Below are positions 10,680 through 28,886 of a stretch of 64,000 bases of DNA, in pieces; positions within the stretch are counted from its first letter, which is position 1; the number at the start of each line of letters is the position of its first letter. A model generated the notes under the pieces. That model was not told where the DNA came from. It worked only from the letters and a program-made list of their open reading frames with translations, and did not search any database. The translations under genes and the position numbers were made by a program. The DNA comes from Veillonella nakazawae (GTDB lineage Bacteria > Bacillota > Negativicutes > Veillonellales > Veillonellaceae), in the NCBI RefSeq assembly GCF_013393365.1, contig NZ_AP022321.1:1291001-1355000 (forward strand), in the 5' to 3' direction.

Positions 10680-10716
10680 GGTTACTAGAACTCCTCTTGC
10701 TTTAAGAATTTGTTAA

Positions 10717-11835
10717 TTATTGATTACGCTTTACAACTACGATAGGTTGAGAAACATTTTCTACTTGCTCTTCTTGTTCTTCTACTGCTGCTGGTTCCTC
10801 TGTTGTTGTTTCATTTTCATCAACAGTGGATTCATTAGTATCTACAGTCTCTTCAGATTCATCTGCTGCATTCGGTACAGTTACAGCTTCAGCCAATTCA
10901 TCATCACTATGAGCCAAACCGTCACCACCAATTACAAGACCTTGAATTGTTACAGAATCTTGAGGTTGTACATAAATTGTTGCACCAGCAGGGTACTCAA
11001 TATTTTTCCCCTTAACAAAAGCGCCACCTACTAAACCTATCGGTCCAAGTAAAACAGCACCAGCTACGGATGCACCTGCAGCTTTTACTTCATTACGAGT
11101 TTTGTCTTTAGCTTCTTTACCTTGTACAGCAGTGAATTCTGTACCATCGATAGCAGGAATAGTATCGAATGTAATATCTAATGCACCATTACGACCAAAG
11201 GAACGGGCCTTTTTCAAAGAAGTAATTGTACCAGAACCTACTGTACCGGCAGGAACTAATAACACATTGCCATCCATAACATTTTCAGCTACTGTGAAAG
11301 CAACAGTGTCGCCTTCATGGCTAGTTTTTGAAGAAACTGCATCATTCAATGTAACTTTGAAAACTTGGTTCCCAGCTAATGTCCCCACTTGATTTGTGAG
11401 CGTTACATTGCTGCCATATACTTTTGTTTTTAAAGAAATGATACGTTTTTGTAAAGAGCCACTACCAATACGACCATTAACGCTACGTTCCATCTTTTCT
11501 ACACGATCAACAAGAGAACCTGCATTAATGCTATTTTGATATGTATATTCAAGTGCGTCCATTTCTTCGCGCAAAGAAATATTTGTGCCGCTACCTTCTA
11601 CGGAGTTATAAAGAGAATCGACACGTTTGCTCAATGTAGCAGAATTGCCATTGAAACCAGTACCATACACGGTTTCATCAAGTTGATTAATGCGGTCCAC
11701 TACAGCACCATCTTGTACAGCGCCATATACAGTAGTTTCTAAAACATTTGTTTTTTCTGTAACTGTACCAGGAGCAGCAAACGCAGTGCCTGAAATCAAG
11801 GATGCCATTAAAAGTGTAAGTACTTGCTTCTTCAT
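10717..11835 (-). CDS. Secreted repeat protein with acidic tail, upstream of lptD
   Basis: A 372-residue protein with a signal peptide (MKKQVLTLLMASLISGTAFA-AP). From about residue 20 to 150 there are roughly six short repeats of 20-23 residues with the pattern hydrophobic-x-x-x-V-Y/E/N-G, a small linker, then L/R-x-x-x-V/I-x-x-(L/M). A second domain (FKVTLNDAVSSKTSHEGDTVAFTV...VPAGTVGSGTITS...) resembles beta-rich domains with a VPAGT motif. A glycine-rich hydrophobic stretch (AGASVAGAVLLGPIGLVGGAFV) and a Glu/Thr-rich acidic tail follow. A longer GTG start at 11847 would overlap the ribosome site, so 11835 with GGAGG upstream is preferred. It is 37 bases from lptD. I do not recognise a named family; a periplasmic or outer-membrane-associated role is inference. 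Confidence 0.75.
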   Translation of the reverse strand: MKKQVLTLLMASLISGTAFAAPGTVTEKTNVLETTVYGAVQDGAVVDRINQLDETVYGTGFNGNSATLSKRVDSLYNSVEGSGTNISLREEMDALEYTYQNSINAGSLVDRVEKMERSVNGRIGSGSLQKRIISLKTKVYGSNVTLTNQVGTLAGNQVFKVTLNDAVSSKTSHEGDTVAFTVAENVMDGNVLLVPAGTVGSGTITSLKKARSFGRNGALDITFDTIPAIDGTEFTAVQGKEAKDKTRNEVKAAGASVAGAVLLGPIGLVGGAFVKGKNIEYPAGATIYVQPQDSVTIQGLVIGGDGLAHSDDELAEAVTVPNAADESEETVDTNESTVDENETTTEEPAAVEEQEEQVENVSQPIVVVKRNQ

Positions 11836-11879
11836 AAATTCCTCCACAACGTATCTAATGTATAACTGTTATACAACAG

Positions 11880-11909
11880 AATAAGCACGGGCCTAAGACC
11901 GTGCTTATT
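11880..11909 (-). terminator. Inverted repeat downstream of the small secreted protein gene
   Basis: AATAAGCACGG and CCGTGCTTATT form a perfect eleven-base-pair stem with an eight-base loop. There is no long T run on either side, so it may act as a rho-independent terminator only weakly, or as a 3' stabiliser. It separates the small secreted protein gene from the repeat protein gene. Confidence 0.5.
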
Positions 11910-11943
11910 CCCTGAGTCTACTATTTTATATGCTCAGTGGCCA

Positions 11944-12390
11944 TTAAATTTTCAAATCGATAATAGCAGATACACCTACGCCTTGAACACGAGATGCACC
12001 AACTGGGTTTGTGCTATCAACTGGTACTAAACCTTTTACACGAACCATACCGTTAAAGCTACCTTCAACTTGAGCAACCGCTTTAACTTGTTCAATGCTA
12101 GATGCTGGGCCAGTTACTTGAGCAGCACCAATATAACCTTTTGTACCAATACTGATAATAGGTACAACTTTAGTTGTATACTCTGTGCTTAAGTTATTTT
12201 GTTTCAATAATTTATTTAAGAAAGAGTCAATTTGAGGACCGAATTTATTGATAACAATACCGATGCCACCAATTTTAGCTGCACCACCAAGAATACTGCT
12301 AAGGCCGCCAGCTTGAGTAGTCAAGATGCCACCAAATGCAGTTGTAGTTAAACAAATCCCTAGAACAGCTGTAATAATCTTCTTTTTCAT
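11944..12390 (-). CDS. Small secreted protein of unknown function
   Basis: A 148-residue protein with a signal peptide (MKKKIITAVLGICLTTTAFG), a glycine-rich region (GGLSSILGGAAKIGGIGIVIN), then a compact domain with KVVPIISIGTKGYIGAAQVTG and a C-terminal GASRVQGVGVSAIIDLKI. I do not recognise the family. It is transcribed toward the lptD cluster and has a GGAGG site at its start. The 258 bases upstream, up to hypE, contain a TTGACA box and a weaker TACAAT-like box, so it probably has its own promoter. A role in the envelope is inference from the signal peptide and neighbours only. Confidence 0.7.
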   Translation of the reverse strand: MKKKIITAVLGICLTTTAFGGILTTQAGGLSSILGGAAKIGGIGIVINKFGPQIDSFLNKLLKQNNLSTEYTTKVVPIISIGTKGYIGAAQVTGPASSIEQVKAVAQVEGSFNGMVRVKGLVPVDSTNPVGASRVQGVGVSAIIDLKI

Positions 12391-12648
12391 AATAAGCCTC
12401 CTATAGATACTTATATTTTAACAAATTCTATACATAGATTCTAGTGAAAGTATAAGAACTTACACATAAAGATACTAGCATTGTATAAAAGTCCGATGAA
12501 CAATCAATGAATTTTACACAACTTAATTTAATGCTACTATCATAAAAGATTATTGTCAATATCTACTATTCTTCACACTCTATAAGTACAAAAATTCTTT
12601 TTATACATATAAAATCAGCTAAATATAAAATAATCTTAGTCTATATAA

Positions 12649-13656
12649 TTAGCAGATACGAGGAACTTGATCTTCACCTAACAAATCGATTAAGCGAACA
12701 CCACCAATAGCAGTTTGCAAACCAACCTTGCCAATATTCTTATCTAATGTTTTGCCAATTAGCACCGATTCTTTACCTTCTTCAAAGCTGTGAAGAATAG
12801 ATAGAACTTCATCTGTAACGGATGGATCTACTACGAGTACAACCTTTCCTTCATTTGCTAAATATAACGGATCATATCCCAAAATATCACAAACAGATTG
12901 TACTTCGGCGTGAATTGGTATAGCCGCTTCTTCTACCTTAATACCCACTTGGCTTTGATCTGCAATTTCTTTTAAAACAGTCCCTAAGCCACCCCGTGTA
13001 GGATCTCGCAATAGAGCCACTTGAGGTCCCACTTTATCAAGTACAGCATGAACCATGTTATTTAAAGGAGCACAGTCAGTTTTTAACGCATCAGATAGAT
13101 CCAATCCAAATCGTTGTCCCATAACAGCAATAGAATGATCGCCAATAGCACCAGATAAGATAACATCCATTCCCGCTTTCACACGATGCGGACCAATATC
13201 AATCCCCTCCGGAATCATGCCAATCCCCGCTGTATTTATGTAGATTTTATCTACCTCGCCCTTTTTAACAACCTTAGTGTCTCCTGTAACAATTTGTACA
13301 TTTGCAGCTTTAGCCATATCCGACATAGTATGAAGAATTTCATCTAGCTCATCAAAAGCCAATCCTTCTTCTAAGATAAGTCCACAACTCAAATATTGTG
13401 GAATAGCACCATTCATGGCTAAATCATTCACAGTACCACAGACAGCTAATTTACCAATATTACCGCCAGGGAAAAACGTTGGTTGTACTACATAGGAATC
13501 TGTAGAAAACGCCATACGTCCTGCTGTAACGGGAAATTGAGCACCATCATGTAAAGGAGCCAATAAATCATTTGTAAAGTATTTCAAAATAAAACGCTCG
13601 GTCAACTCATGACTATATCGACCACCGTTTCCATGGACTAAGCGAACTCGCTCCAT
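12649..13656 (-). CDS. hypE: Hydrogenase maturation protein HypE
   Basis: A 335-residue AIR-synthase-fold protein that dehydrates the carbamoyl group on its C-terminal cysteine to the cyanide ligand of [NiFe]-hydrogenase. The diagnostic C-terminus PRIC is present, as are the N-terminal VRLVHGNGGRYSHELTERF block, VTGDTKVVKKG (ATP and metal binding), and LLRDPTRGGLGTVL. The frame extends upstream to 13713, but the start at 13656 has GGGAGG upstream inside the end of hypD and matches the family N-terminus. It is one base from the hypD stop, so translation is probably coupled. It works with HypF (which makes the carbamoyl-AMP) and the HypCD complex. Confidence 0.95.
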   Translation of the reverse strand: MERVRLVHGNGGRYSHELTERFILKYFTNDLLAPLHDGAQFPVTAGRMAFSTDSYVVQPTFFPGGNIGKLAVCGTVNDLAMNGAIPQYLSCGLILEEGLAFDELDEILHTMSDMAKAANVQIVTGDTKVVKKGEVDKIYINTAGIGMIPEGIDIGPHRVKAGMDVILSGAIGDHSIAVMGQRFGLDLSDALKTDCAPLNNMVHAVLDKVGPQVALLRDPTRGGLGTVLKEIADQSQVGIKVEEAAIPIHAEVQSVCDILGYDPLYLANEGKVVLVVDPSVTDEVLSILHSFEEGKESVLIGKTLDKNIGKVGLQTAIGGVRLIDLLGEDQVPRIC

Positions 13657-13657
13657 A

Positions 13658-14776
13658 TTAATCCTCCCACGTCGATCCACCACTGGAATAACCATATTTA
13701 TACCATGCAGCACAACTACCTTCTACAGATACCATGCAGGCACCAACTGGATGGTCAGCAGTACAACTTTTACCAAACAATGGACATTCACTCGGTTTAA
13801 TAAGACCTTGCAATACACGGCCACATTGACAACCCTTCGGATCAAGAGAAGGTCGTTCAAGATGGATAGGTAATGCACGTTCTACATCATAGGCTGCATA
13901 TTCGTCCTTTAATCTTAAACCAGAATTTGGAATGACACCTATACCACGCCACGCATCATCACATACATCATATACCTCTTTGATCATCGCTTGCGCTACG
14001 GGATTACCCTTCTGCATAACTACAGAATGATATGTATTGCCTACTATAAAATTACTAGTTTTTCGTTGCTCTAAAATATTTGCTATAGCAGATAAAATTT
14101 CAATTCCATCAAAACCAGCAATACATGATGGTATGTGATACTCTTCAGGTAAGAATTGATATGGTTCTTCTCCGATAATAACACTCACATGACCCGGCAA
14201 AATAAAACCATCAATATGACCTTCTTGTTTATCTAATAAAGCTCGCAATGCAGGAGGCACTAATTTATGAGATACAAGGAAGAAAACGTTCTTCAAGCCT
14301 GCTGCATGAACTGCTTTTACAGTTGCACAAATAACGGCAATAGTCGTTTCAAAACCTATGGCTAAAAATACGATTTTCTTTTCTGGATATTTCTTACTAA
14401 GTTCTACTACCTCTAAAGGCGTATAAATTACATGGATATGCGCACCCTTTGTTTGAGCTTCACTAAGACTACTATAACTACCTGGCACCTTTAACATATC
14501 CCCAAAGGTTGCAATAATAACATCATCACGTTCAGCATAAGCCAAAGCCTTATCCATATACGTTTGATCCGTTACACATACAGGACATCCTGGTCCACTA
14601 ACAAGTTCAATGCCACTTGGCAATAACTGACGAAGACCTTCACGGAAAATCGATACAGTATGTGTACCACAAACCTCCATAAGTCTCACGGTTTCCCCTG
14701 GCTTATGAAGAGTATTGATACGTTTTAATAACGCATCAGCACTGTTATGCTTTTCCTGCAAAGTAAGCTTCTTCAA
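13658..14776 (-). CDS. hypD: Hydrogenase maturation protein HypD
   Basis: A 372-residue [4Fe-4S] protein, the scaffold with HypC for building the Fe(CN)2CO unit. The MEVCGTH motif is at residues 33-39, GPGCPVC at about 61-67, and the C-terminal cysteine cluster CQCGRVLQG...CPLFGKSC is present. The best start is a TTG codon at 14776, with AAGGAG ten bases upstream; it overlaps the end of hypC by 32 bases, a sign of translational coupling. No in-frame ATG exists before the MEVCGTH motif at a fitting distance, so the TTG start fits the usual N-terminal length. Confidence 0.95.
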   Translation of the reverse strand: MKKLTLQEKHNSADALLKRINTLHKPGETVRLMEVCGTHTVSIFREGLRQLLPSGIELVSGPGCPVCVTDQTYMDKALAYAERDDVIIATFGDMLKVPGSYSSLSEAQTKGAHIHVIYTPLEVVELSKKYPEKKIVFLAIGFETTIAVICATVKAVHAAGLKNVFFLVSHKLVPPALRALLDKQEGHIDGFILPGHVSVIIGEEPYQFLPEEYHIPSCIAGFDGIEILSAIANILEQRKTSNFIVGNTYHSVVMQKGNPVAQAMIKEVYDVCDDAWRGIGVIPNSGLRLKDEYAAYDVERALPIHLERPSLDPKGCQCGRVLQGLIKPSECPLFGKSCTADHPVGACMVSVEGSCAAWYKYGYSSGGSTWED

Positions 14777-14987
14777 GTTCTTCTAGCTCCTTAAAGGCCT
14801 CTAATGTTTTTTGTGCCTCTTCTTCATCAACAATTTGTACAGCAAAACCTGCATGGACTAACAACCAGTCCCCTACCTTTGCTTCTGGTACGAGGAGTAA
14901 GCTGCAGTCACGGGTAGCACCTGTTAATTCTACAGTGCCAATAACATCATTCACAGCTATTAACTGTGCTGGTACAGCTAAGCACAT
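14745..14987 (-). CDS. hypC: Hydrogenase maturation chaperone HypC
   Basis: An 80-residue HypC/HybG-family chaperone beginning MCLAVPAQL, with the essential cysteine 2 that binds the iron unit. The family motif GDWLLVHAGFAVQIVDEEEA is near residues 43-62, with an acidic C-terminal helix. HypC carries the iron centre between HypD and the hydrogenase large subunit. It opens the hypCDE cluster and overlaps hypD. The gap of 143 bases to hypF is AT-rich and may hold a promoter. Confidence 0.96.
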   Translation of the reverse strand: MCLAVPAQLIAVNDVIGTVELTGATRDCSLLLVPEAKVGDWLLVHAGFAVQIVDEEEAQKTLEAFKELEELEEAYFAGKA

Positions 14988-15130
14988 ATTATCTCCTTAT
15001 ATATTACTTTAATAACAAATTCTATAAGTTTACTTTTATGTAAGTAAACTCATTATATATAAATATTTCTAATATTATTGTATCACAATTATAGTATTCA
15101 TTAAGTGATACTAGCTACATGAGTATATAA

Positions 15131-17410
15131 CTATTTCTGATTACCAATCCATAATTGGCCGAGTGCTAAGCCCCCATCATTGGAAGGAACAGCCTCATTC
15201 ATATATAAATTGCCTACATGCCAAGCGCGATATATTGACTCTACTAATTTGCGATTTTGAAATACACCGCCTGATATGGCCGCATCACTAATATTATATC
15301 GCTCCATTAAATCGGCTGAAGTTTCACATAATGCAATGGCAACGGTTTTATGGAATGATGCTGAAAGATGAGCTTTAGATTCACCTTTAACGACACCATC
15401 CATAATAGATTGAACAGTTGGAGTAAAATCAAGAATTCGACCGTCATAGTTATAATCAAGCAATATGCCTTTTTCATCACCACATAAAGATTCTAATGCA
15501 ATAGCAATTTGCGCATCATAGGTATGAATCATGCCTAGGCCTAAAAGAGAACCTGCTGCATCAAATAAACGTCCACAGCTCGTTGCTTGAATCATAGGCA
15601 TTGTAGATTGTAATGCTTTATCTAATATTTCCCAACCTTTAGGTAGCCTGTTCATCCAATCTTGGTAAATAGGTGGAATATCATTACCATAATAATTTCT
15701 GATATACCATAAGGCTTGACGCCATGGCTCAGAAACCGCTTTTTCTCCACCTGGTAACGGCGCTTCATGGATATGAGCTAATCGCTGATATTCGTTGCCT
15801 TTACAAAGGAGAAATTCACCGCCCCATACGCTTCCATCTGGACCATATCCAGTACCATCCATGGCAATACCTAGTACAGGGCCTTCAAGATTGTGTTCTG
15901 CCATGACTGATGCAATATGAGCATGATGATGTTGGACAGGTATAACAGAAATCTGTGAACTTTTACCAATACGTTCCCCTAAGTGAGAAGAGAAAAATTG
16001 AGGATGACTATCTACCATAATTTTCTCTGGTTGTATAGAAAATAATTTCTCATATCGGTCAATAGTCCACTCCAAAGTTGCATGAGTGGATGCATTCTGT
16101 AGATCACCAATATGTGGTCCTACAAGAACTTCAGAACCTTTATTCATAGCGAAAGCATTTTTTAAATCACTCCCCATGGCTAATATCGAAGTTTGCCCTG
16201 AAATTTCACAATGAATAGGTTCTGGTACATAGCCACGACTACGACGAATAAATCGAGGTTTCTTATGAATAACAGTTACAACAGAATCATCGAGAGGTGC
16301 ATAAATTTTCCGATTGTGGACCAAAAAATAATCCGCCACTGCCCCTAACTCTTCAAATGCTTGATTATCATCATATAAAACGGGATCACCGCTACGATTG
16401 CCGCTCGTCATGACCCACGCCGCATCTGATGGTAATAGTACCTCATGCATCGGTGTATATGGTAACATTACGCCAAGCATATGATTATCTGGCGCTACAT
16501 GGGTACTCAAATGGACTAAGCTATCGTGATTTCTTTCTAATAATACGATAGGACGTTCCATTCCAGTCAAAATATCTAGTTCTACATCACTAAGATGGAC
16601 TAGCTCGATTGCCGTATCTAGAGACCCTACCATAATTGCTAGTGGTTTATGTGGTCTGTTTTTACGCTTACGTAAGCGTTGGACCGCTACATCATTTCGA
16701 GCATCACAAACTAAATGATAGCCGCCAATCCCCTTTATAGCGATAATACTACCTTCGTTAATTAATTCACGAGTTGTATTCCATACATTTACTGTATCTA
16801 CAACCGTACGATTAGGTTTATATAGAGTATAATGCGGCCCACAAAGAGAACACACATTAGGTTCAGCACGATAACGGCGCCCCTCTATATCCTCATATTC
16901 AGCCTTACAAGCTTCACACATAGGAAACTCATCCATCGTCGTTCGCTCACGATCATAAGGTAGAGATTTAATAATCGTATACCGAGGGCCACAATTTGTG
17001 CAATTAATAAAAGGATATTCTTTCCTACGCTTGTCCCGTTCTAGTTCTTTAAGACAGTCATCACATGGCGCTGTATCAGCACTAATAAACGTACTAACCT
17101 CTTCGCCTAATGGAGAGGTCTTCACAGAGAACTCAACTTCATTATTTTGTATAGTAAGATGTTGTACCCTTTGACTTGTAATGCGGCACAATCGAGGTTG
17201 GTCATCTTGAATCGCATCTAAAAACAACTGCAAATCACTAGTACAACCTTGTATCTCGACGTAAACACCTTGACTATCATTATATACAAAACCTGTTAAA
17301 CCTAGGGAATGTGCCCACATAGAAACAAGGGGCCGGAATCCGACCCCTTGAACTATACCGGTATAACGAATTCCCCAGCGTTCTATAGTTTGATTACTAT
17401 TTTGTTTCAT
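15131..17410 (-). CDS. hypF: Carbamoyltransferase HypF
   Basis: A 759-residue protein that makes the carbamoyl-AMP and transfers the carbamoyl group to HypE. Domains in order: an acylphosphatase domain (GIRYTGIVQGVGFRPLV, with YVEIQG), two zinc-finger units (CDDCLKEL...CTNCGPRYT and CEACKAEY...CSLCGPHYT), a YrdC-like domain (AIKGIGGYHLVCDA...KPLAIMV), and a C-terminal Kae1-like ATP-binding domain (VQHHHAHIASVMAEH, GTGYGPDGSVWGGE). The length is typical. It lies 35 bases after the SCIFF maturase gene, so it may be read from the same transcript. No hydrogenase structural genes or hypAB are in the window. Confidence 0.97.
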   Translation of the reverse strand: MKQNSNQTIERWGIRYTGIVQGVGFRPLVSMWAHSLGLTGFVYNDSQGVYVEIQGCTSDLQLFLDAIQDDQPRLCRITSQRVQHLTIQNNEVEFSVKTSPLGEEVSTFISADTAPCDDCLKELERDKRRKEYPFINCTNCGPRYTIIKSLPYDRERTTMDEFPMCEACKAEYEDIEGRRYRAEPNVCSLCGPHYTLYKPNRTVVDTVNVWNTTRELINEGSIIAIKGIGGYHLVCDARNDVAVQRLRKRKNRPHKPLAIMVGSLDTAIELVHLSDVELDILTGMERPIVLLERNHDSLVHLSTHVAPDNHMLGVMLPYTPMHEVLLPSDAAWVMTSGNRSGDPVLYDDNQAFEELGAVADYFLVHNRKIYAPLDDSVVTVIHKKPRFIRRSRGYVPEPIHCEISGQTSILAMGSDLKNAFAMNKGSEVLVGPHIGDLQNASTHATLEWTIDRYEKLFSIQPEKIMVDSHPQFFSSHLGERIGKSSQISVIPVQHHHAHIASVMAEHNLEGPVLGIAMDGTGYGPDGSVWGGEFLLCKGNEYQRLAHIHEAPLPGGEKAVSEPWRQALWYIRNYYGNDIPPIYQDWMNRLPKGWEILDKALQSTMPMIQATSCGRLFDAAGSLLGLGMIHTYDAQIAIALESLCGDEKGILLDYNYDGRILDFTPTVQSIMDGVVKGESKAHLSASFHKTVAIALCETSADLMERYNISDAAISGGVFQNRKLVESIYRAWHVGNLYMNEAVPSNDGGLALGQLWIGNQK

Positions 17411-17445
17411 ATAAACTCCTACTATAGACGGAGAATTAATGGCTA

Positions 17446-18855
17446 TTAACCTAATGCTACAGGAATACTGCCATCAATGCCAGCTTGTTCTAGCTCGGCT
17501 TGAATCATAATAGCGCATTCAATACGTTTCTTTTGTAAGCGGCAGCCAAATTCATAAGGTGTTTCTAAATCGCCACCTAATGTAATGTTGTTAGCATGAC
17601 AGCCACCAGAACAGAAGAATTTCGCCCAACATTCAGCACAAGTTGGTTTAGAGAATACATGTGTATTACGGAAATCTTTAGGAATTTCTGTATTTTGTAA
17701 ACCATCATACACATTGCCAAGCACATATCCATCTTTACCTACGAATTGATGACATGGGTAAATATCGCCATTTGGTACGACTGCCATATATTCATGACCT
17801 GCCCCACAACCACGAAGGCGTTTAGCCATACATGGACCGCGATACAAATCCATACGGAAGTGGAAGAAGTTAAACTTCTCGCCCCAACCATCTAATTGAC
17901 GTTGTAAATAAATATCTGCTAATTTTTCATATTCTTTTTCCAATACAGGCCAATCCTCTTCGCGAAGAACATAGTCCCCCTCTTCACCTACTACAGGCTC
18001 CATGGATAAATGTTCGAAGCCAAGATCAGACATAGCCATAACGTCTTTTGTAAAGTCTAAGTTTTTATGTGTATACGTACCACGTACGTAGTATTCAAGA
18101 CCATGGCGTTGTTTTACCGCATTGATAAGGTTTTTAGCAATATATTTATAAGATTCCGCACCACTACCAGCTACAGGACGCATCGCATTATGTACAGATT
18201 CACGACCATCCAAAGATAATACAAGGCTCATCTTATGTTCGTTTACATAGTCGATTTTATCTTGTGTTAACAGCATGCCATTTGTAGTCAATGTAAGCTT
18301 GAAAATCTTATTGTGCTTTTCTTGAATGGATTCAATATATTCAACTGTTTGTTTAACAACATCCCAGTTCAATAAAGGTTCTCCACCAAAGAAGTCTATT
18401 TCACAATGTTGACGAGGGCCGCTCATTTTAATGAGGAAGTCCACTGCACGCTTCGCCACATCAAAACTCATTAATTCACGTTTTACACCGCCGTAATCAC
18501 CTTGGCTGGCAAAACAGTATTTACATGCTAAATTACAATCATGAGCAATATTTAAGCATAATGCCTTAACAATAGGTTTTTCACCTACTACAAGTTTAAA
18601 CTCTGTACTCATCGGAGCAAACAATTGCTCTGCTTTAATGAGCTCATCTAACTCATCCATAATCTCATCAAGTTCTACGGCATCTTCCTTAGCATCTAAT
18701 GCAGCATGTACTGCATCGCGATTAGTGCCATCATATATGTCAAGAACTCTATCAATGAGTTCGTCGATAACGTGAATAATACCACTATTAACATCTAAGC
18801 AGTAATAGTTATCCTTCATCCGAAACTTATGGATCATTGGTTTTAATTCTAACAT
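17446..18855 (-). CDS. scfB: SCIFF peptide maturase (radical SAM/SPASM thioether-forming enzyme)
   Basis: A 469-residue radical SAM protein. The cluster motif CNLACKYC (C107, C111, C114 counting from this start) binds the SAM [4Fe-4S]. GGEPLLNWD follows. The C-terminal SPASM region has CGAGHEYMAVVPNGDIYPCHQF and a CAECWAKFFCSGGC block for two auxiliary clusters. The N-terminal 80 residues match the peptide-binding (RRE-like) part of SCIFF maturases. An in-frame extension to 18921 lacks a ribosome site, while 18855 (MLELKPMIHKF) has GGAGG four bases upstream. It would form Cys-to-residue thioether bonds on the SCIFF precursor encoded immediately upstream. hypF follows in the same direction. 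Confidence 0.95.
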   Translation of the reverse strand: MLELKPMIHKFRMKDNYYCLDVNSGIIHVIDELIDRVLDIYDGTNRDAVHAALDAKEDAVELDEIMDELDELIKAEQLFAPMSTEFKLVVGEKPIVKALCLNIAHDCNLACKYCFASQGDYGGVKRELMSFDVAKRAVDFLIKMSGPRQHCEIDFFGGEPLLNWDVVKQTVEYIESIQEKHNKIFKLTLTTNGMLLTQDKIDYVNEHKMSLVLSLDGRESVHNAMRPVAGSGAESYKYIAKNLINAVKQRHGLEYYVRGTYTHKNLDFTKDVMAMSDLGFEHLSMEPVVGEEGDYVLREEDWPVLEKEYEKLADIYLQRQLDGWGEKFNFFHFRMDLYRGPCMAKRLRGCGAGHEYMAVVPNGDIYPCHQFVGKDGYVLGNVYDGLQNTEIPKDFRNTHVFSKPTCAECWAKFFCSGGCHANNITLGGDLETPYEFGCRLQKKRIECAIMIQAELEQAGIDGSIPVALG

Positions 18856-18990
18856 GGTACCTCCAATTAATATGTATGGTAAAAGTTCTACTATATAGAA
18901 CTTTCTAGATAATTGTACCACATTTCCATGCTAAACGTTATGAAAAGAGTCATAAAGATATACCATACAAAGTATGTATTATACACATAA

Positions 18991-19015
18991 ATAAAAAAGG
19001 CCCGCTAAGCGAGCC
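18991..19015 (-). terminator. Terminator downstream of the SCIFF precursor gene
   Basis: On the minus strand GGCTCGC, loop TTA and GCGGGCC form a seven-base-pair GC-rich stem directly followed by TTTTTTATTT. It lies seven bases after the precursor stop, before the maturase gene, so the short peptide mRNA would be made in excess over the maturase mRNA. Confidence 0.88.
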
Positions 19016-19021
19016 TCTTTA

Positions 19022-19165
19022 TTATTTTTGTTTGCAAACTTGGTTACCAACTGTGCAGCTTGTTTTGCAAGCAGATTGGCAAGATGTTTGACATTCCCCA
19101 CAACCGCCAGTTTTAGCAGTTTTTTGCAAGGATTCAGTGTTGATAGTACGAATACGTTTAGCCAT
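19022..19165 (-). CDS. scfA: SCIFF precursor peptide (six cysteines in about 45 residues)
   Basis: A 47-residue peptide beginning MAKRIRTINTESLQKTAK, with cysteines at 22, 25, 29, 33, 37 and 44 and ending in VCKQK. This is the SCIFF pattern: a conserved leader-like N-terminus and six cysteines in the C-terminal half, to be linked by thioether bridges to other residues. The start at 19165 has a strong GAGGAGG site. Its own promoter lies just upstream (19200-19229) and a terminator just after it. The partner maturase gene is 167 bases downstream. The product's biological activity is not known from the sequence; in some clostridia such ranthipeptides have been linked to population-density signalling. 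Confidence 0.93.
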   Translation of the reverse strand: MAKRIRTINTESLQKTAKTGGCGECQTSCQSACKTSCTVGNQVCKQK

Positions 19166-19199
19166 GGTTATCCTCCTCAATACTTATCGAATGATATTT

Positions 19200-19229
19200 A
19201 TTTTATCATATTTATGAAAAGCCTGTAAA
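19200..19229 (-). promoter_or_regulatory. Predicted promoter of the SCIFF precursor gene
   Basis: On the minus strand TTTACA (19229-19224) and TAAAAT (19205-19200) are 18 bases apart, with a start region of about 35 bases before the ATG. It lies in the 67-base gap between the S-component gene and the precursor gene. Confidence 0.6.
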
Positions 19230-19232
19230 ATA

Positions 19233-20021
19233 CTATTTAGTTATGTTTTCTTCTACAGATTTGATTTTATTAACTTCTGTAGTTTTATTTTCATCCGCTC
19301 CTACTGTTGTTGCAGCGCTTGTAACAGCATCAGTTTTTTCTTTCTTAGGAGTATCCTTACGCAATACCTTACGTAATGCCAATGCAACTGGTGTCACGAT
19401 AACAGCAGCAAACACTGCTTCTGGAATACCATGTGTAACAGATAAGAATACAATAGAACCTAATACTTGATCTGGGCTAAGATTCATTTTAACAGCAAAC
19501 ATATCTGCGTAAAGCAAGAAGATAAGTCCCATAACCATAATTGTATGGAATACAGTACCCATAAATGCAGATACAAGAATGCGTGGACCTTGAGGTGCTT
19601 TCCACAATAATAAGTATACTAAATATGCTAATACAGGGAAAAGTATACGTGGTAACACAGAAATGATTGGATTAATAAATAGTGGAGATAAAATATTAGG
19701 TGCTGTAATATTTTGCCACAAGCTATAGCAACCAAAGATGAAGCCTACAAAAGCACCCACTTTAGGTCCCTCTACGATAGCACCAATAAGTGTGGGTACA
19801 TGCAACGTAGTTACATTAAGAGGGCCTAATGGAATAATACCATAGCCAGATACACCTAATGCAATAGTAATCCCCGCTAATAGACCAATAATTGTTAATT
19901 CGCGAATCGTAATGCCACTCTTCTTCTTTTTTGGCTCTTTACGTTCAACTTGCTTCAGTTTTTCATTGTCTTGGATTGATACAGTTGAGTTATCATCCAC
20001 TGGACGTTCATTGTTGTTCAT
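19233..20021 (-). CDS. ECF-type S component (substrate unknown) with charged tails
   Basis: A 262-residue membrane protein. A hydrophobic core of about 180 residues (ITIRELTIIGLLAGITIALGV... to ...ALRKVLRK) has five or six membrane segments and the S-component look (LHVPTLIGAIVEGPKVGAFVGFIFG; SVTHGIPEAVFAAVIVTPVALAL). Unusually, it carries about 38 Lys/Glu-rich residues before and about 45 after the core. The substrate-binding subunit captures a vitamin or similar molecule and shares a general energising module encoded elsewhere. Substrate cannot be assigned. It is 49 bases after a gene of unknown function (20071-20913), so the three genes at 19233-21310 probably form one operon. Confidence 0.8.
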   Translation of the reverse strand: MNNNERPVDDNSTVSIQDNEKLKQVERKEPKKKKSGITIRELTIIGLLAGITIALGVSGYGIIPLGPLNVTTLHVPTLIGAIVEGPKVGAFVGFIFGCYSLWQNITAPNILSPLFINPIISVLPRILFPVLAYLVYLLLWKAPQGPRILVSAFMGTVFHTIMVMGLIFLLYADMFAVKMNLSPDQVLGSIVFLSVTHGIPEAVFAAVIVTPVALALRKVLRKDTPKKEKTDAVTSAATTVGADENKTTEVNKIKSVEENITK

Positions 20022-20070
20022 AGATCCTCCTTCGTTCTCATTCCTTACGGATATAAGTCGAAACTAGAAA

Positions 20071-20913
20071 TTAAATACGTTCACGGCGTCGTGAAATAAT
20101 ACCACGCTCTACCAATGCACCTATAATCACTGCTACACCTGTCACACCAGCTTCTAACAAAGTTGGGGTAACAAACACTAGTGGATTACCTTGATACGTT
20201 GGAAAAACGGTGGGAACTAAAGATAAAACAAACTCTGGAATATAACCACCATATAAAATATGGGCATTCATAGCGAGCCATAAACCAGCAGTTAAAACAA
20301 TACGAAATAATCGTATACCTTTATAGGCTAATTCTCTTGGGTATAAATAGAATACGAATACCAATAAGGATATAAGTAATGACACCAATTCTGCAAAGAG
20401 TATATTTACATTCATAGATGACGCATACATGAAATAAACCATTGGATCTTGTAGATCAATATAGAGGAGTGAACCAATATATAAGAATGGAATTGGAATA
20501 GTATATCCAATTATATCGAGTGCTTCATCTACCATTCCCCATCGATGATTTCGATTGAAAAACTTAGTAGCTAGCAACCCACAAAGTTCAATAAGTACTT
20601 GAACTATAAAATACACCACGAAAAGAAGCAACGCTGTTACAATTCTACTATCTGCAGTAAAGCTAAAGGGCGTATGAAGAAATGAAAATACTGTCCACCA
20701 AGCCCAACTATACGTATGATATCCCATACTCAATGGTAAATCGTCATTAAATTTAGCATTCTTAAGTCTTCGTACCATAAGAGGTATTACGAGGGACAAC
20801 ACGGGGAATACTAAGATTGGTAAAGCTAGCGCTCCACTCAAAGAAAGAACTGTTGTTACAGCACTTACAAATAATGCACAGACAACGGTGAATAACCAGA
20901 AATTCTTATTCAT
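20071..20913 (-). CDS. Unrecognised multi-span membrane protein, larger partner
   Basis: A 280-residue protein with about eight hydrophobic segments and few charged loops; the longest loop has an FFNRNHRWGMVDEALD motif, and the C-terminus is ERGIISRRRERI. I recognise no family. Its N-terminal 120 residues look related to the 134-residue protein encoded just upstream: LSLVIPLMVRRLKNAKFNDDLP compares with LSLIMPWAYLSFKSSTFGDG, and both are followed by SxxY and an SW pair. The upstream gene overlaps its start by eight bases. An operon with the S component is likely, so a transport or membrane-assembly role is possible but not shown. Confidence 0.75.
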   Translation of the reverse strand: MNKNFWLFTVVCALFVSAVTTVLSLSGALALPILVFPVLSLVIPLMVRRLKNAKFNDDLPLSMGYHTYSWAWWTVFSFLHTPFSFTADSRIVTALLLFVVYFIVQVLIELCGLLATKFFNRNHRWGMVDEALDIIGYTIPIPFLYIGSLLYIDLQDPMVYFMYASSMNVNILFAELVSLLISLLVFVFYLYPRELAYKGIRLFRIVLTAGLWLAMNAHILYGGYIPEFVLSLVPTVFPTYQGNPLVFVTPTLLEAGVTGVAVIIGALVERGIISRRRERI

Positions 20914-21310
20914 TACGGCCTCCTACTAAACGAGTAAGACCATATGCCAAAAGCAAGCTAATAGTAACACCAATATACATAGCTACTAAAAAAGCTACAT
21001 CTCGGCCAGCTGTAGGCCAGCTCCATAGCATCGATAAATCTACACCGAGAAAAATACCTTTATAGCTAATGCCGTGGATTATAATCCAACTTACAACATA
21101 AGCAATACGGCTAATCGATTTTCCATCTCCAAAGGTACTACTTTTAAACGATAAATATGCCCAAGGCATTATTAGTGATAAAAGTAAATACCATACAAGT
21201 GCTACGGTAGCACTTGATCCATTATGAATCATATATGCAATAATAGGAATTACTACGATAAATAGATTCAAATAAACGGATCTTTTACAAATATCCATTA
21301 ATGTGTTCAT
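20906..21310 (-). CDS. Unrecognised small membrane protein, shorter partner
   Basis: A 134-residue protein with four predicted membrane segments, ending in a short positively charged tail (GLTRLVGGRNE). It resembles the N-terminal half of the 280-residue protein encoded next (shared LSLxxP, K-S/N-A/S-x-F-x-D and SW motifs at matching positions). The start is preceded by a GGAG site. It is first in the presumed three-gene operon, 115 bases upstream of which lies the terminator-bounded P-type ATPase gene on the same strand. No function can be given. Confidence 0.72.
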   Translation of the reverse strand: MNTLMDICKRSVYLNLFIVVIPIIAYMIHNGSSATVALVWYLLLSLIMPWAYLSFKSSTFGDGKSISRIAYVVSWIIIHGISYKGIFLGVDLSMLWSWPTAGRDVAFLVAMYIGVTISLLLAYGLTRLVGGRNE

Positions 21311-21381
21311 ATAGATCTCCTATGATATGTAATCTCTTTGTATTTTACAATAATCATAGATAAATGTCATCAAAAAAGAAA

Positions 21382-21420
21382 AACCTCCATACAGGTAAAT
21401 GAATACCTTATATAGAGGTT
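21382..21420 (-). terminator. Terminator downstream of the P-type ATPase gene
   Basis: On the minus strand AACCTC (pairing with GAGGTT) plus an inner TACCT/AGGTA stem make an extended hairpin, followed by TTTTTCTTTTTT. It ends the metal-ATPase operon five bases after the stop codon. Confidence 0.82.
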
Positions 21421-21425
21421 CTTAA

Positions 21426-23564
21426 TTAAGCTACTACAGAGTCAGCTGTTACATCAATTGTAGGAACAGTTTCCTTTTGTTCTTCTTTCTTCAACAATGG
21501 AGTCATGCTTTCTAAGCCGATACCCAATGTGAATAGATTATGCAACCATGCTGTTTGGCTTGGCGGCATAATACCGAGTACGCCACCACCTACAAGAGCA
21601 CCGTTGAAACCAACGATACCATTGTAATTTGCTTTGATGCGTTTCATCAATGCCATAGAAATGCGGCGTAAATCTACAAGAGCTTGTAGATGGTCGGAAG
21701 AAATAGTAACATTTGCAATTTTTTGAGCAATTGGAGCGCCTTCATTCATAGCGATACCAACATGTGCTTCAGAAATTGCTGGGGAATCGTTAATACCATC
21801 CCCTACCATCATAACAGTATAGCCTTCAGCTTTTGCTTGTTTTACATAAGCCGCTTTATCTTCTGGCAATACTTCAGCATGCAATTCATCGATGCCGAGT
21901 TCGTCAGCTACACGTTGTGCATTACGTTTGGAGTCGCCAGTCATCATGACAACCTTTTTAATACCCAAAGTGTGTAAATCAGCTATAACTTGTTTTGCTT
22001 CCTCACGAACAGGGTCTTTAATACAAATAACCGCTGCTAGTGTACCTCCAATAGCGAGGTAAATATGGGAAGATGAATTTGGTAAATTATTGAACTTTTC
22101 TTGTTCATCTGCAGGAATTTTTGTCTTTTCATCATCAAAGATGTAGTGAGCACTACCAATGCGTACACGGTAGCGACCGACTTTAGATGCAATACCATGA
22201 GCTACAACGTATTCTACGTCGGAGTGCATTTCCTTGTGAGGCAAGTCATGATCCTTAGCAGCGCGTACAATTGCTTTTGCCATGGAGTGAGGGAAATGTT
22301 CCTCAATACATGCAGCTAATTTCAACATTTCATCTGCATCATGACCGTTGAACGGGATGATTTGTTCAAACTCAGGTTCTGCTTTTGTAAGAGTACCAGT
22401 TTTATCGAACACAATCATATCTGCTTGTGCAATTTGTTCTAAGAACTTACCACCTTTAACAGTGATACCGCGTTTAGATGCTTCTTGCATAGCGGAAAGT
22501 ACTGCTAATGGAATGGATAATTTTAGAGCACAAGAGAAGTCAACCATTACGAAAGACAATGCTTTCATTACATTACGAGTCAACAAGTATGTTAAACCAG
22601 CACCAATAAAGCTTATTGGAACTAATTTATCAGCCATGCGGTATGCTTGTTGTTCCATACCGGATTTCATTTGTTCAGACTCTTCAATGAGGTTAACGAT
22701 TTTTTCGTAACGAGATGTTTTGGATGTGCTACGTACTTCTACAATAGCTTTACCGTCTTCAACAACAGTACCTGCATATACAGAACTGTCTTGATCGCGA
22801 CGAACCGCTTCTGGTTCACCAGTCATGGAGCTTTCATTAACAAGAACAACACCATCGATAACGACGCCATCCAATGGAATCACTTCGCCTTGGCGAATAA
22901 TGATTTTATCACCTGCCACAACTTCGTTAACTGGCTTGCTCACTTCAATGTCATCAACTAAAACCCATACTTTATCTACGTTCAAGGACATGCTTTGAGC
23001 GAGATTTAATACGGATTTACGGTGAGTCCATTCTTCTAAGATATCACCAATACCTAATAGGTACATAACAGCGCCAGCTGTAGGGTAATCCTTTTGAAGT
23101 AATGCAGCACCAATAGCTACACCATCAAGTACTTCGACAGTTAACTTACGTTGCCACAATGTTTTAATCGCTTTACCGATAAATTTAATACCGTCAAACC
23201 AAGCCCATGCAGCTGCAATCGGTGCAGGAAGCACTGCTTTTTTACCTAAGTAAAGTGCAGTACGGTTGATCATCATTTCACGGTATTTTTTATTTACCAA
23301 GCGAGGAGAATATTCGTTTAAAGCAGGAGCTTCAGACAAATCTAAATCGCGTAGAGCTAACACTGCATCACGCACAGAATCAGAATCGCCATTATGTTTA
23401 ATGGCGATTTGACTGCTACGAGTGTAGAAGGTTACATCTACAATTGCATCATTAAGGAGTAATGTATCCTCTACATAAGCTGCTTCAGCCTCTGTAAAGC
23501 GATGACCAGTTACCTTAACATGCAAGCGATTTCTGAGTTTTCGTACAACAGAAAATTGTAACAT
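21426..23564 (-). CDS. P1B-type metal-translocating ATPase with atypical membrane motif
   Basis: A 712-residue P-type ATPase. Residues 1-75 look like a ferredoxin-fold metal-associated domain but without a CxxC. Then come the actuator NESSMTGEP (about 244-252), the phosphorylation site DKTGTLT (387-393) and VGDGINDSPAI. The intramembrane motif, usually CPC or SPC in P1B ATPases, reads DFSCALKL (FSC at about 343-345), so the normally invariant proline is replaced by serine; the HP motif also reads PHSMA rather than HPLA. Metal is therefore not predictable; the neighbours (a DUF6110-like protein, a FeoB-associated protein and FeoAB) suggest iron or manganese. It starts 17 bases after the DUF6110-like gene. 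Confidence 0.88.
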   Translation of the reverse strand: MLQFSVVRKLRNRLHVKVTGHRFTEAEAAYVEDTLLLNDAIVDVTFYTRSSQIAIKHNGDSDSVRDAVLALRDLDLSEAPALNEYSPRLVNKKYREMMINRTALYLGKKAVLPAPIAAAWAWFDGIKFIGKAIKTLWQRKLTVEVLDGVAIGAALLQKDYPTAGAVMYLLGIGDILEEWTHRKSVLNLAQSMSLNVDKVWVLVDDIEVSKPVNEVVAGDKIIIRQGEVIPLDGVVIDGVVLVNESSMTGEPEAVRRDQDSSVYAGTVVEDGKAIVEVRSTSKTSRYEKIVNLIEESEQMKSGMEQQAYRMADKLVPISFIGAGLTYLLTRNVMKALSFVMVDFSCALKLSIPLAVLSAMQEASKRGITVKGGKFLEQIAQADMIVFDKTGTLTKAEPEFEQIIPFNGHDADEMLKLAACIEEHFPHSMAKAIVRAAKDHDLPHKEMHSDVEYVVAHGIASKVGRYRVRIGSAHYIFDDEKTKIPADEQEKFNNLPNSSSHIYLAIGGTLAAVICIKDPVREEAKQVIADLHTLGIKKVVMMTGDSKRNAQRVADELGIDELHAEVLPEDKAAYVKQAKAEGYTVMMVGDGINDSPAISEAHVGIAMNEGAPIAQKIANVTISSDHLQALVDLRRISMALMKRIKANYNGIVGFNGALVGGGVLGIMPPSQTAWLHNLFTLGIGLESMTPLLKKEEQKETVPTIDVTADSVVA

Positions 23565-23580
23565 ATCTGCAATCCTCTAA

Positions 23581-23841
23581 TTATTTGTTTTCTTCAAAGA
23601 TTTCTTCGTTGCGTGCTTCGTTGATTTCTTGAGCTTCTGCCAATACATCAGATGCGGATGCTTGTACTTTTTCAGCTGTTTCTAATACAGTTTCTTTAGC
23701 GCGAAGACCAGCTGCTACGATACCAGCATATACTTTTTTTGCGTCTTTGGAAGTTAACACTTTAAGACCTACAGTACCCAATGCAAGACCTGCTGCGAAT
23801 AAGTTAGCGTTTTTAAGATTGTTTTGGTTGAAGTTGAACAT
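23581..23841 (-). CDS. DUF6110-like protein, partner of the metal ATPase
   Basis: An 86-residue protein beginning MFNFNQNNLKNANLFAAGLALGTVGLKVLTSKDAKKVYAG, with a hydrophobic helix followed by an amphipathic helix with AEKVQASASDVLAEAQEINEARNEE. The SKDAKKVY and EINEARNE blocks match DUF6110 proteins, commonly encoded just before P1B-type ATPases. The start at 23841 has an AAAGGG site; a longer frame to 23925 has no such site. Function is unknown; a role as an accessory of the ATPase is inference from gene pairing. Confidence 0.78.
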   Translation of the reverse strand: MFNFNQNNLKNANLFAAGLALGTVGLKVLTSKDAKKVYAGIVAAGLRAKETVLETAEKVQASASDVLAEAQEINEARNEEIFEENK

Positions 23842-23948
23842 GATAATATCCCTTTCTACTAATAAATATATAAAAAATTTACTTACTATATTTGAAAAGA
23901 GGAGCCCATTATAGAGACCCCTCATTCAAATTCAGAATTCGTATTAGC

Positions 23949-24155
23949 TTACTTAGCGGTACGTTTAATGCCTAGTGCTTTATTGGAACCATCACAGCTG
24001 CAGCTACCACCGCAACCAGAAGATTTTTTAGAGCCAGACTTGGAGCCACCGCTACCACAGCCGCAGCCACCTTTACCAGACACTTGTTTATAAATTTTTG
24101 TACCAAGATAAGCCAATGCTAATATCACTATGAGTCCTATAATTAGGTTATCCAT
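23949..24155 (-). CDS. FeoB-associated Cys-rich membrane protein
   Basis: A 68-residue protein with one N-terminal membrane helix (MDNLIIGLIVILALAYLGTKIY) and a Gly/Ser/Cys-rich tail carrying CGCG and CGGSCSCDG clusters. This is the FeoB-associated Cys-rich protein family, thought to bind metal near the FeoB iron channel. The true start is 24155 with AAGGA upstream; a longer in-frame start exists at 24185. It begins a transcript running into the DUF6110-like gene and the ATPase, with a Fur-like inverted repeat in its promoter region. Confidence 0.9.
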   Translation of the reverse strand: MDNLIIGLIVILALAYLGTKIYKQVSGKGGCGCGSGGSKSGSKKSSGCGGSCSCDGSNKALGIKRTAK

Positions 24156-24250
24156 TATAATTCCTTCTTTCTCAATATCCACCAAATTTTCATAAATTGA
24201 TATATGATAAATGAGTTAAAAGCAATATATTTGGATATTTCCCTTTTCTC

Positions 24251-24285
24251 ATTATCATTTAACCATAAATAATGATAATTGGCAA
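24251..24285 (-). promoter_or_regulatory. Fur-like inverted repeat overlapping a promoter
   Basis: ATTATCATT (24251-24259) and AATGATAAT (24271-24279) form a perfect nine-base inverted repeat with eleven bases between, using the Fur/DtxR-type half-site. It lies inside a candidate minus-strand promoter (TTGCCA at 24285-24280 and TTAAAT at 24262-24257, 17 bases apart) upstream of the FeoB-associated Cys-rich gene. Iron control of this promoter is plausible. Confidence 0.65.
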
Positions 24286-24386
24286 GATTTTTTTTAAATT
24301 TTTCTATAATTAAATCACATTATGTCAATACAATTTAGTTCTAGGTATCTAAGGAATGTAAACCATAGTGATTAGCTACGCTTTAA

Positions 24387-26756
24387 TTAGAAGCCTAGTG
24401 CCAAACCAATATTGTAGAAAATAAAGCATGCAATCCATGCGAAAGCATTTTCATAGAAGAACATGAATAGCATCCATTTCCAAGAACCAGTTTCGCGTTT
24501 AATAACTGCTAGCGCTGCGATACATGGAGGGTAAATCAAGATGAATAGCATTAATGTTAATGCAATCAATGGTGTAAAGTGTGGATCATTTTGTAAGTAA
24601 TCAGTCAATGCTTGAGGATGATCTGTATCGCCACCTACAGCATAGATAGTACCCAATGTAGATACAACAACTTCTTTAGCCGCTAAACCAGCCACGAGAG
24701 ATACACCGATTTTCCAGTCAAAGCCTAATGGTTTAAGAACTGGGTTGATTGCTTTACCGAATATAGCAGCATAGGATTGTTCCAATTTTTCAGAATTTTT
24801 TTCTTGGTCAATTTTTTGATTTTCATCATCTAAATTAACGCTATTTTTGTACATAGACCATGCTACTGGGAATAATTGTTCATTTTGTTCTTTAATGTCA
24901 TTGAACAATTCAGGTGCTTCAGAATCATCTTCTACTTCGATTTCAGGAGCAGCTTCTCCAGCATCCTCTGCTTGTGTAGTGGCATCTGCTACAGTAGATT
25001 TCATATTGTCAACGATTTCATTAACTTGGTCTTTTTGTTCATCTGTAGCGATACCAAAATGAGCCAAAGTTTCTGCATCTTTCATTTCATATGTTTGAGC
25101 TACTTGATCATGCAATGCATCATAATCTTTGGAGTATTCTACATCCATTGGATATGTTGTGATAAACCATACGAGGATGGAGGCAGCAAGGATGAAAGTA
25201 CCTGCTTTTTTAAGGTACATAATACCACGTTCAAACATATGAGTTAATGTAGCTTTTAAAGTTGGTAAATGATATGGAGGCAATTCCATTACGAATGGTT
25301 CTGCTTCGCCAGCAAATAAATATTTGCGGAAAATTTTAGCAAATACGATACCAAATACAATACCTAGTGCATACACACCAAATACTACAGTACCAGCCCA
25401 TTCAGGAGGGAAAAATGCTGCTGCAAACAAAGTATAAACAGGTAAGCGTGCAGAACAACTCATGAATGGAGTAATTAAGATTGTTACCATACGATCTTTG
25501 TAGTTATCAAGGATACGTGCACCCATTACGGATGGTACGGAACAACCAAAACCTAATAATAAAGGAATAAACGATTTACCATGTAAACCACAAGCGCGCA
25601 TTACACGGTCAATAACGAAGGCAGCACGTGCCATATACCCTGTATCTTCCAAGAAAGAGATACCAAGGAATAATAATAGAATTAATGGTACGAAGGATAG
25701 TACAGCACCTACACCGGCGATGATACCGTCAGAAATAAGTGATTGTAACTGACCTTCTGGAATAACTGTTACAACCCATGCTTGTAATGCAGTAAAGCCA
25801 TCTTCAATCCAACCTTGAGGAATAGCACCTACAGTATTTACAAAGTTAAATAGTAACCACATTACAACCATAAAAATTGGCAAACCAAGAATACGGTGAG
25901 TTAAAATTTTATCATAACGGTCAGAACGCGTTTCTAATTGTGTAGGAGCCTGTGTTAAACATGTATTATATACTTCTACTGCGAAGCGGTGACGATATTC
26001 TTGGAAGACAATATCAAGATCAACTTGATCCTTAATTTCTTCACGAATAGCTTCAGCCTTTTGAATAACAGCTTCCGTATTATCAAAGCGCATAACTTTG
26101 CCAATAACGTCCGCATCTTTTTCTAACAACTTAACAGCAACCCAACGAAGTGGATATGTAACAGTACCAGCTTGTTTTAGCTCTTCTACAAGTTCACTAA
26201 TTTTGCCTTCTAACAAATCACCATAGTTAATTGTTACACCAGGAGCTTTTTGAGAAGCAGCTACACTAACTGTTGCTGCTAACAACTCATTTGTACCAAT
26301 GTTTGTACGACCTACTGTGCTAACAATTGTAGCCCCTGTCATTTCTGCCATTTTTTTTAGGTCATATTTGATGCCCATATCTTCAGCAACATCAGACATG
26401 TTTAGAGCAATAACCATTGGCTTTTCAAGTTCCAATAATTGTGCAGCTAAATATAAGTTACGTTCCAAATTAGATGCATCAAGAACATTAACAATTACAT
26501 CTGGGTTATCATTTACGATAACATTACGCGCTACTAACTCATCCAAGGAACGTGCAGTTAAGCTATATGTACCTGGTAAGTCAATAAACAATAAATCATG
26601 GCCATCAAATTTCTTATAGCCTTCCTTTTTTTCTACTGTAACGCCGGCATAGTTACCAACGTGTTGCTTCGCCCCTGTGATATTGTTAAACATTGTAGTT
26701 TTACCACAGTTAGGGTTACCTGCTAAGGCAATGCGAATTTGCCCTTTTTCTGCCAT
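24387..26756 (-). CDS. feoB: Ferrous iron transporter FeoB
   Basis: A 789-residue ferrous iron transporter. The N-terminal GTPase has GNPNCGKTTMFNNITG (G1), a DLPGTYSL G3 region and NMSD (G4). A helical domain follows, then about ten membrane segments with the conserved GARILDNYKDRM and cysteine-containing GCSVPSVMGAR region. Between membrane segments near residues 550-660 there is a long, strongly acidic hydrophilic loop (EIEVEDDSEAPELFND...). Length is typical of long FeoB. It lies directly after feoA (nine bases), and the two would be co-transcribed from the Fur-like promoter upstream of feoA. Confidence 0.97.
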   Translation of the reverse strand: MAEKGQIRIALAGNPNCGKTTMFNNITGAKQHVGNYAGVTVEKKEGYKKFDGHDLLFIDLPGTYSLTARSLDELVARNVIVNDNPDVIVNVLDASNLERNLYLAAQLLELEKPMVIALNMSDVAEDMGIKYDLKKMAEMTGATIVSTVGRTNIGTNELLAATVSVAASQKAPGVTINYGDLLEGKISELVEELKQAGTVTYPLRWVAVKLLEKDADVIGKVMRFDNTEAVIQKAEAIREEIKDQVDLDIVFQEYRHRFAVEVYNTCLTQAPTQLETRSDRYDKILTHRILGLPIFMVVMWLLFNFVNTVGAIPQGWIEDGFTALQAWVVTVIPEGQLQSLISDGIIAGVGAVLSFVPLILLLFLGISFLEDTGYMARAAFVIDRVMRACGLHGKSFIPLLLGFGCSVPSVMGARILDNYKDRMVTILITPFMSCSARLPVYTLFAAAFFPPEWAGTVVFGVYALGIVFGIVFAKIFRKYLFAGEAEPFVMELPPYHLPTLKATLTHMFERGIMYLKKAGTFILAASILVWFITTYPMDVEYSKDYDALHDQVAQTYEMKDAETLAHFGIATDEQKDQVNEIVDNMKSTVADATTQAEDAGEAAPEIEVEDDSEAPELFNDIKEQNEQLFPVAWSMYKNSVNLDDENQKIDQEKNSEKLEQSYAAIFGKAINPVLKPLGFDWKIGVSLVAGLAAKEVVVSTLGTIYAVGGDTDHPQALTDYLQNDPHFTPLIALTLMLFILIYPPCIAALAVIKRETGSWKWMLFMFFYENAFAWIACFIFYNIGLALGF

Positions 26757-26765
26757 GTGAACCTC

Positions 26766-26999
26766 CTATTGAACCTCTACATCAATCATGCCAGCTTCGC
26801 TATTACGAAGTGCTAATTCAAAGTTTTTTACTTTGATTTCCACCGGATCCCCCAAAGGGGCATACTTCATAACATGGATTTTTGTACCATGTACAAGACC
26901 CATGTCAATTAGACGATGCTTAACGTTGCCACTGCCATGTAGTGTAACAATAAGACCAGACTCACCTGGTTTCATGTCTTTTAACTTTTTGATAGCCAT
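26766..26999 (-). CDS. feoA: FeoA iron transport accessory protein
   Basis: A 77-residue SH3-like cytoplasmic protein (MAIKKLKDMKPGESGLIV..., RLIDMGLVHGTKI, APLGDPVEIKV, FELALRNSEAGMIDVEV), the FeoA partner needed for FeoB-dependent ferrous uptake. An in-frame extension to 27044 has no ribosome site; 26999 has AGGAGG at the right distance. It is the first gene of the feoAB transcript. Confidence 0.93.
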   Translation of the reverse strand: MAIKKLKDMKPGESGLIVTLHGSGNVKHRLIDMGLVHGTKIHVMKYAPLGDPVEIKVKNFELALRNSEAGMIDVEVQ

Positions 27000-27077
27000 A
27001 CGACACCTCCTAATTATTGTACCTAACAACCTCATATTAAACACACCAAATAATAATGCGTATTAATATCTTAAATT

Positions 27078-27117
27078 ATTATATCAAAGAAATCATTAAT
27101 TTCAACAATTATTATCA
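27078..27117 (-). promoter_or_regulatory. feoA promoter with Fur-like site
   Basis: Minus strand: TTGAAA (27105-27100), 16 bases, TATAAT (27083-27078). Immediately upstream and partly overlapping the -35 box is TGATAATAATTGTTG (27117-27103), whose first half is a good Fur-type half-site while the second is degenerate. A second Fur-like cluster lies at 27283-27310. Confidence 0.6.
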
Positions 27118-27487: not shown

Positions 27488-27516
27488 TTGCCCCTACTAT
27501 GTGCATAAGGTATAAT
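27488..27516 (+). promoter_or_regulatory. Promoter of the DEAD-box helicase gene
   Basis: TTGCCC (27488-27493), 17 bases, TATAAT (27511-27516), with a transcript leader of about 30 bases before the ATG at 27549. The -10 box is perfect and the -35 box is weak. Confidence 0.6.
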
Positions 27517-27548
27517 TAATATAATATGTATTATAGAAAGGACGATCC

Positions 27549-28847: not shown

Positions 28848-28851
28848 AACT

Positions 28852-28885: not shown

Positions 28886-28886
28886 T

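Follow-up and report, generated by a model that had tools for sequence, protein, structure and literature searches.

A SCIFF precursor and maturase gene pair of Veillonella nakazawae, its probable transcription and its possible role

A short reading frame beside a radical SAM enzyme gene in Veillonella nakazawae raises the question of whether it encodes a peptide precursor of a known kind and, if so, what that peptide does for the cell. The window, a stretch of 64,000 nucleotides from contig NZ_AP022321.1, had earlier been interpreted from its letters only (hereafter the sequence-only reading) as carrying a complete SCIFF ranthipeptide precursor gene, missed by length-based gene calling, ahead of its maturase gene. 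The features considered here are collected in Table 1.

Table 1. Features of the SCIFF locus, in coordinates of the window.
Feature	Position	Strand	Basis or remark
scfA promoter-like site, TTTACA-18-TAAAAT with TG ahead of the -10	19200..19229	(-)	10/12 consensus letters
scfA, SCIFF precursor, 47 aa + stop	19022..19165	(-)	TIGR03973, PF13165; ATG to TAA, the 47 codons at 19165..19025
Intrinsic terminator (predicted) between scfA and scfB	18994..19020	(-)	hairpin, conservation
Probable own scfB promoter, extended -10 TGGTACAAT, poor -35	18912..18920	(-)	sequence, conservation
scfB, radical SAM/SPASM SCIFF maturase, 469 aa	17446..18855	(-)	TIGR03974, CteB alignment
hypF	15131..17410	(-)	TIGR00143, 718 bits; 35 nt after scfB; neighbouring gene outside the peptide system

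The peptide and its gene are as that reading described them, with six cysteines (positions 22, 25, 29, 33, 37 and 44) in 47 residues and a ribosome-binding sequence, GAGGAGG, upstream of the ATG. The profile search that it had called for gave clear matches to both SCIFF precursor models, TIGR03973 (84.1 bits, cut-off 50, E 4.6e-24) and PF13165 (85.9 bits, cut-off 27, E 1.7e-24), scores that place the family identity of ScfA far beyond chance. The core CQSACKTSCT is present here and in all 61 precursors compared, as are Thr35 and Thr38 (precursor row L076, whose start lies too far upstream, was set aside where relevant). A Gly-Gly pair precedes the first core cysteine, at residues 20-21, in the window and in 56 of 61 precursors; it is missing from those of L064 and L093-L096, so the family has no fixed double-glycine cleavage site.

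The adjoining gene fits the same assignment. ScfB scored 588 bits against the SCIFF maturase model TIGR03974 (cut-off 425), and PF04055 and PF13186, corresponding to its radical SAM and SPASM parts, both matched above cut-off. Residues 6-454 of the 469 align to CteB (PDB 5wgg/5why; E 9.3e-144) with the cysteines matched, and the 12 conserved maturase cysteines are all kept in 59 of 59 usable ScfB rows, the 60th (L062, extracted one residue long) having been left out. A SCIFF system is defined as a precursor accompanied by its maturase (PMC5300114), and in the window scfA and scfB lie side by side. We are therefore highly confident that Veillonella has here a standard SCIFF ranthipeptide pair, ScfA/ScfB, a judgement that covers identity and chemistry and not role.

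For the chemistry of SCIFF relatives we rely on the accessible portions of two reviews (PMC8326336, PMC8172795). By analogy with CteA/CteB and Tte1186a/Tte1186, ScfB would bind the leader of ScfA, cleave SAM at a cluster held by its Cys107, Cys111 and Cys114, use its SPASM auxiliary clusters, and join Cys33, the fourth cysteine of ScfA, to a threonine. The acceptor would be the gamma carbon of Thr35 if the co-expression result is followed, or Thr38 according to older in vitro results; the same two reviews, in the text available, dispute the crosslink site as Thr34 or Thr37 in CteA numbering. Donor and acceptor residues for the thioether are both present in the window peptide, and ScfA is predicted to be a ranthipeptide, that is, to carry a thioether from a cysteine sulphur to a non-alpha carbon.

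Is such a pair unusual? Surveys of genomes show that it is not. The precursor was found in 14 of 14 Veillonella genomes (all from assemblies other than the window's own) and in 244 of 252 genomes of the class, three of which had two matches, while its model matched 0 of 14 control genomes; the maturase was found in 243 of the 252. Both genes are present in 241 of the class genomes, neither in six, the precursor only in three and the maturase only in two. The closest genome compared (G001) is 95.1% identical to the window over 16.8 kb, and Veillonella sp. T11011-6 is 92.6% identical over 16.2 kb. A protein search returned 5733 relatives, and among the best 120 several already carry the name SCIFF in their source records, one of them being a Veillonella montpellierensis protein. 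Because nearly every member of the class carries it, the pair in the window is an ordinary and already known one, and the idea of a gene missed by gene calling fails for the family at large, which is neither rare nor generally overlooked. Searches of 72,556 plasmid records gave no near match to 17446..19300, and no Rfam family reached its gathering threshold within 10000..30000. We take GTDB Bacillota_C to include the Negativicutes. Ranthipeptide clusters are reported from Bacillota_C in the sections available of PMC13289728, so, with that placement, the occurrence of ranthipeptides in Negativicutes is already in print. In the literature text searched, 'Negativicutes' was not found jointly with 'ranthipeptide' or 'SCIFF'; 'ranthipeptide' and 'Veillonella' do co-occur.

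The genomes that depart from this pattern merit a separate description. G027, G039, G040, G131, G143 and G215 lack both SCIFF and maturase; the assembly of G215 consists of one 1.3 Mb contig with 99% completeness, so its loss of both is probably real, and several of the others are drafts. G133, G135 and G137 have ScfA without a full ScfB, and since G137 still matches ScfB positions 1-77, assembly gaps are a likely cause of such orphan precursors. In a Selenomonadaceae-like genus (g43), all eight scfA loci examined (L013, L015, L025, L026, L028, L033, L121 and L122, from genomes G126, G125, G134, G132, G135, G127, G133 and G137) lack scfB within about 1.4-1.5 kb on either side, and in G127 scfB is on a different contig from scfA. 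The pair seems to be split in this lineage, which indicates that the precursor can be encoded away from its maturase.

Conservation extends to the sequence of the peptide. Summed over 120 pairs of the 16 Veillonellaceae loci, pN/pS is 0.038 for scfA versus 0.149 for scfB, so the peptide is under stronger constraint than the enzyme that modifies it, and nine of the 16 loci encode identical precursors. This bears on the suggestion that SCIFF is an antimicrobial RiPP. Genome-mining rules do class TIGR03973 matches as bacteriocins, although the same source (PMC13289728, in its available sections) describes the class as one without well-characterised antimicrobial activity. Near-universal and mostly single-copy occurrence, strong purifying selection on scfA, and the lack of any immunity gene or dedicated peptide exporter among the recurring neighbours annotated (singletons left out) all speak against a bacteriocin, which we consider highly improbable.

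How the two genes are transcribed was assessed by conservation. Consensus scans by themselves were no better than chance, with 18 promoter-like sites against 17.2 expected and 4 terminator-like sites against 2.4 expected, and it is the conservation in relatives that supports the scfA promoter-like site and terminator. The comparison used 61 class loci, namely the window and 60 that we picked; since these loci share ancestry and we set the search rules ourselves, the draws behind the following counts are not independent. Of the 16 Veillonellaceae loci, 13 have an extended -10 ahead of scfA and 15 have a terminator behind it; for the 61 class loci the corresponding counts are 25 (shuffles gave an expectation of 3.1) and 53 (1.7 expected). 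The hairpin in the window has 12 pairs, six of them G-C and two G-U, with a loop of 3 and a T-rich tail, and, judged by these predictions, a terminator between the two genes is kept class-wide. Both the promoter and the terminator proposed in the sequence-only reading are thus borne out as conserved elements. At one locus (L049, genome G010) a long inverted repeat lies inside the terminator loop just after scfA, which turns the terminator into a much longer hairpin.

A second extended -10, ahead of scfB, occurs in 14 of 60 class loci versus 2.1 expected; it is concentrated in the Veillonellaceae (12 of 16, versus only 2 of 44 other loci) and is conserved across the aligned Veillonella loci. 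With scfB having its own conserved element, the pair in Veillonella probably forms two transcription units. scfA would then give a short, separately terminated transcript, and scfB would begin a transcript of its own that probably extends into hypF; outside Veillonella, read-through or other promoters must serve scfB. The expectation that the layout yields more precursor than enzyme presumes read-through into scfB, and given the separate scfB element in Veillonella the ratio of the two cannot be read from the layout.

The surroundings of the pair are more variable than the pair itself. In all 60 loci with both genes, scfA and scfB follow one another on the same strand, with 64-823 nt between the match ends, and among named loci the pair is in tandem within 1 kb in 75 of 80. 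Recurring upstream neighbours in the 61 class loci are yvcK (28), whiA (27), rapZ (24), a polysaccharide deacetylase (20) and an unnamed protein of 367 aa (20); on the other side of the pair, downstream, come hypF, hypD or hypE (25-26), rpoN (16), gap (13) and cggR (9). A second set, 76 loci of named genomes (L128-L203) with many Lachnospiraceae and some Negativicutes, has as its commonest other neighbours SecDF (45), RecJ (30), TIGR04086 (16) and Apt (15), clusters of which none was found in the 61 class loci. As the neighbours differ between the two sets and the pair stays constant, location is no safe clue to function. The S-component gene upstream of scfA in the window is an ECF S-component gene by its PF12822 match, as had been proposed; it is a local feature, and the other families examined have a different gene there. 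The unnamed protein, about 367 aa long (L065:10984-12087:-, with relatives at 19 further loci), is usually encoded directly upstream of scfA, and the one member scanned had no Pfam or NCBIfam match. Elsewhere in the window, at 21426..27044 (-), consecutive genes encode a heavy-metal P-type ATPase, a DUF6110 protein, a cysteine-rich protein, FeoB and FeoA; the cysteine-rich protein has a weak likeness, below the Pfam cut-off, to FeoB-associated proteins.

The hyp genes deserve particular attention because scfB may run into them, with hypC, hypD and hypE coming after hypF, and a part for SCIFF in [NiFe]-hydrogenase maturation could be imagined. A hypD homologue does lie in 26 of the 61 loci, and 16 of those loci belong to Veillonellaceae. 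HypD was detected in 189 of 252 class genomes, and we rejected the link since 60 of the 63 genomes without it still carry SCIFF; conversely, G040, G131 and G143 keep HypD without SCIFF or maturase. A role in hydrogenase maturation is accordingly very unlikely.

A more serious alternative, put forward for solventogenic clostridia, is that the mature peptide is secreted and acts as a signal in quorum sensing. In Clostridium beijerinckii, disruption is reported to have lowered sporulation genes while raising agr (the review PMC8102284, in its accessible text, after Chen et al. 2020), SCIFF is listed under the heading of quorum sensing in the available part of PMC8326336, and SecDF, which belongs to the general export machinery, lies beside the Clostridia pair in 45 of 76 loci and could aid export. 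Profile searches, which can miss distant forms, nevertheless found Spo0A in only 45 of 252 class genomes and AgrB above cut-off in only five, with none of either in the genus Veillonella, against 244 of 252 for SCIFF; no control genome exceeded the AgrB cut-off, so the sensitivity of that search rests on the five class matches. The C39 peptidase expected in the genome for an exported double-glycine RiPP was detected in 114 of 252 class genomes (112 above cut-off) and 8 of 14 control genomes, and in 0 of 14 Veillonella genomes, which extends to the whole genome the earlier remark that no dedicated peptidase-transporter lies nearby. Most pheromones vary in sequence, unlike the near-invariant SCIFF precursor. 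Of the 207 genomes without Spo0A, 199 carry SCIFF, as do 239 of the 247 that lack a clear AgrB and 136 of the 138 that lack C39; this persistence, together with that in genomes lacking HypD, speaks against a conserved role of SCIFF in sporulation, Agr, C39 export or the assembly of [NiFe]-hydrogenase. We regard a secreted signal as unlikely, if less so than the antimicrobial and hydrogenase proposals.

It seems quite possible, though somewhat short of probable, that the core product acts in or at the producing cell and is neither a bacteriocin nor a part of Agr, sporulation or hydrogenase systems. More tentatively still, we suggest that in Negativicutes SCIFF is a core crosslinked miniprotein with one conserved function in or at the cell, for example in thiol, metal or iron-sulphur handling, instead of a secondary metabolite, and that the effects on sporulation and Agr in Clostridium are downstream consequences. 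As Veillonella keeps SCIFF although searches of 14 genomes of the genus detected no Spo0A, AgrB or C39, it offers a clean background, free of the clostridial readouts, for asking what SCIFF does.

Among known systems, the pair most resembles the six-cysteine SCIFF ranthipeptides CteA and Tte1186a (TIGR03973/PF13165), with which it shares the family model, the cysteine pattern, the CQSACKTSCT core and the adjacent maturase; nothing essential is different, and the local neighbours differ, an ECF S-component and hyp genes here versus SecDF, RecJ, TIGR04086 and Apt in the Clostridia loci. A resemblance of ScfA to iron-sulphur proteins was also considered and set aside, the PDB sequence matches being weak, with epoxyqueuosine reductase at E 0.011 and a best stretch of 0.26. 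ScfB likewise corresponds to CteB (TIGR03974; PDB 5wgg, 5why) over nearly its full length, the probable promoter of its own in Veillonella and the putative read-through into hypF being the features that would set it apart. Freyrasin (PapA/PapB) has radical SAM thioether chemistry in common with the pair, the PapB model scoring 271 bits against the window ScfB, under its cut-off of 340. Its six Cys-Asp links are formed in Cys-X3-Asp motifs, according to the available text of PMC8172795, whereas the ScfA of the window contains no aspartate at all.
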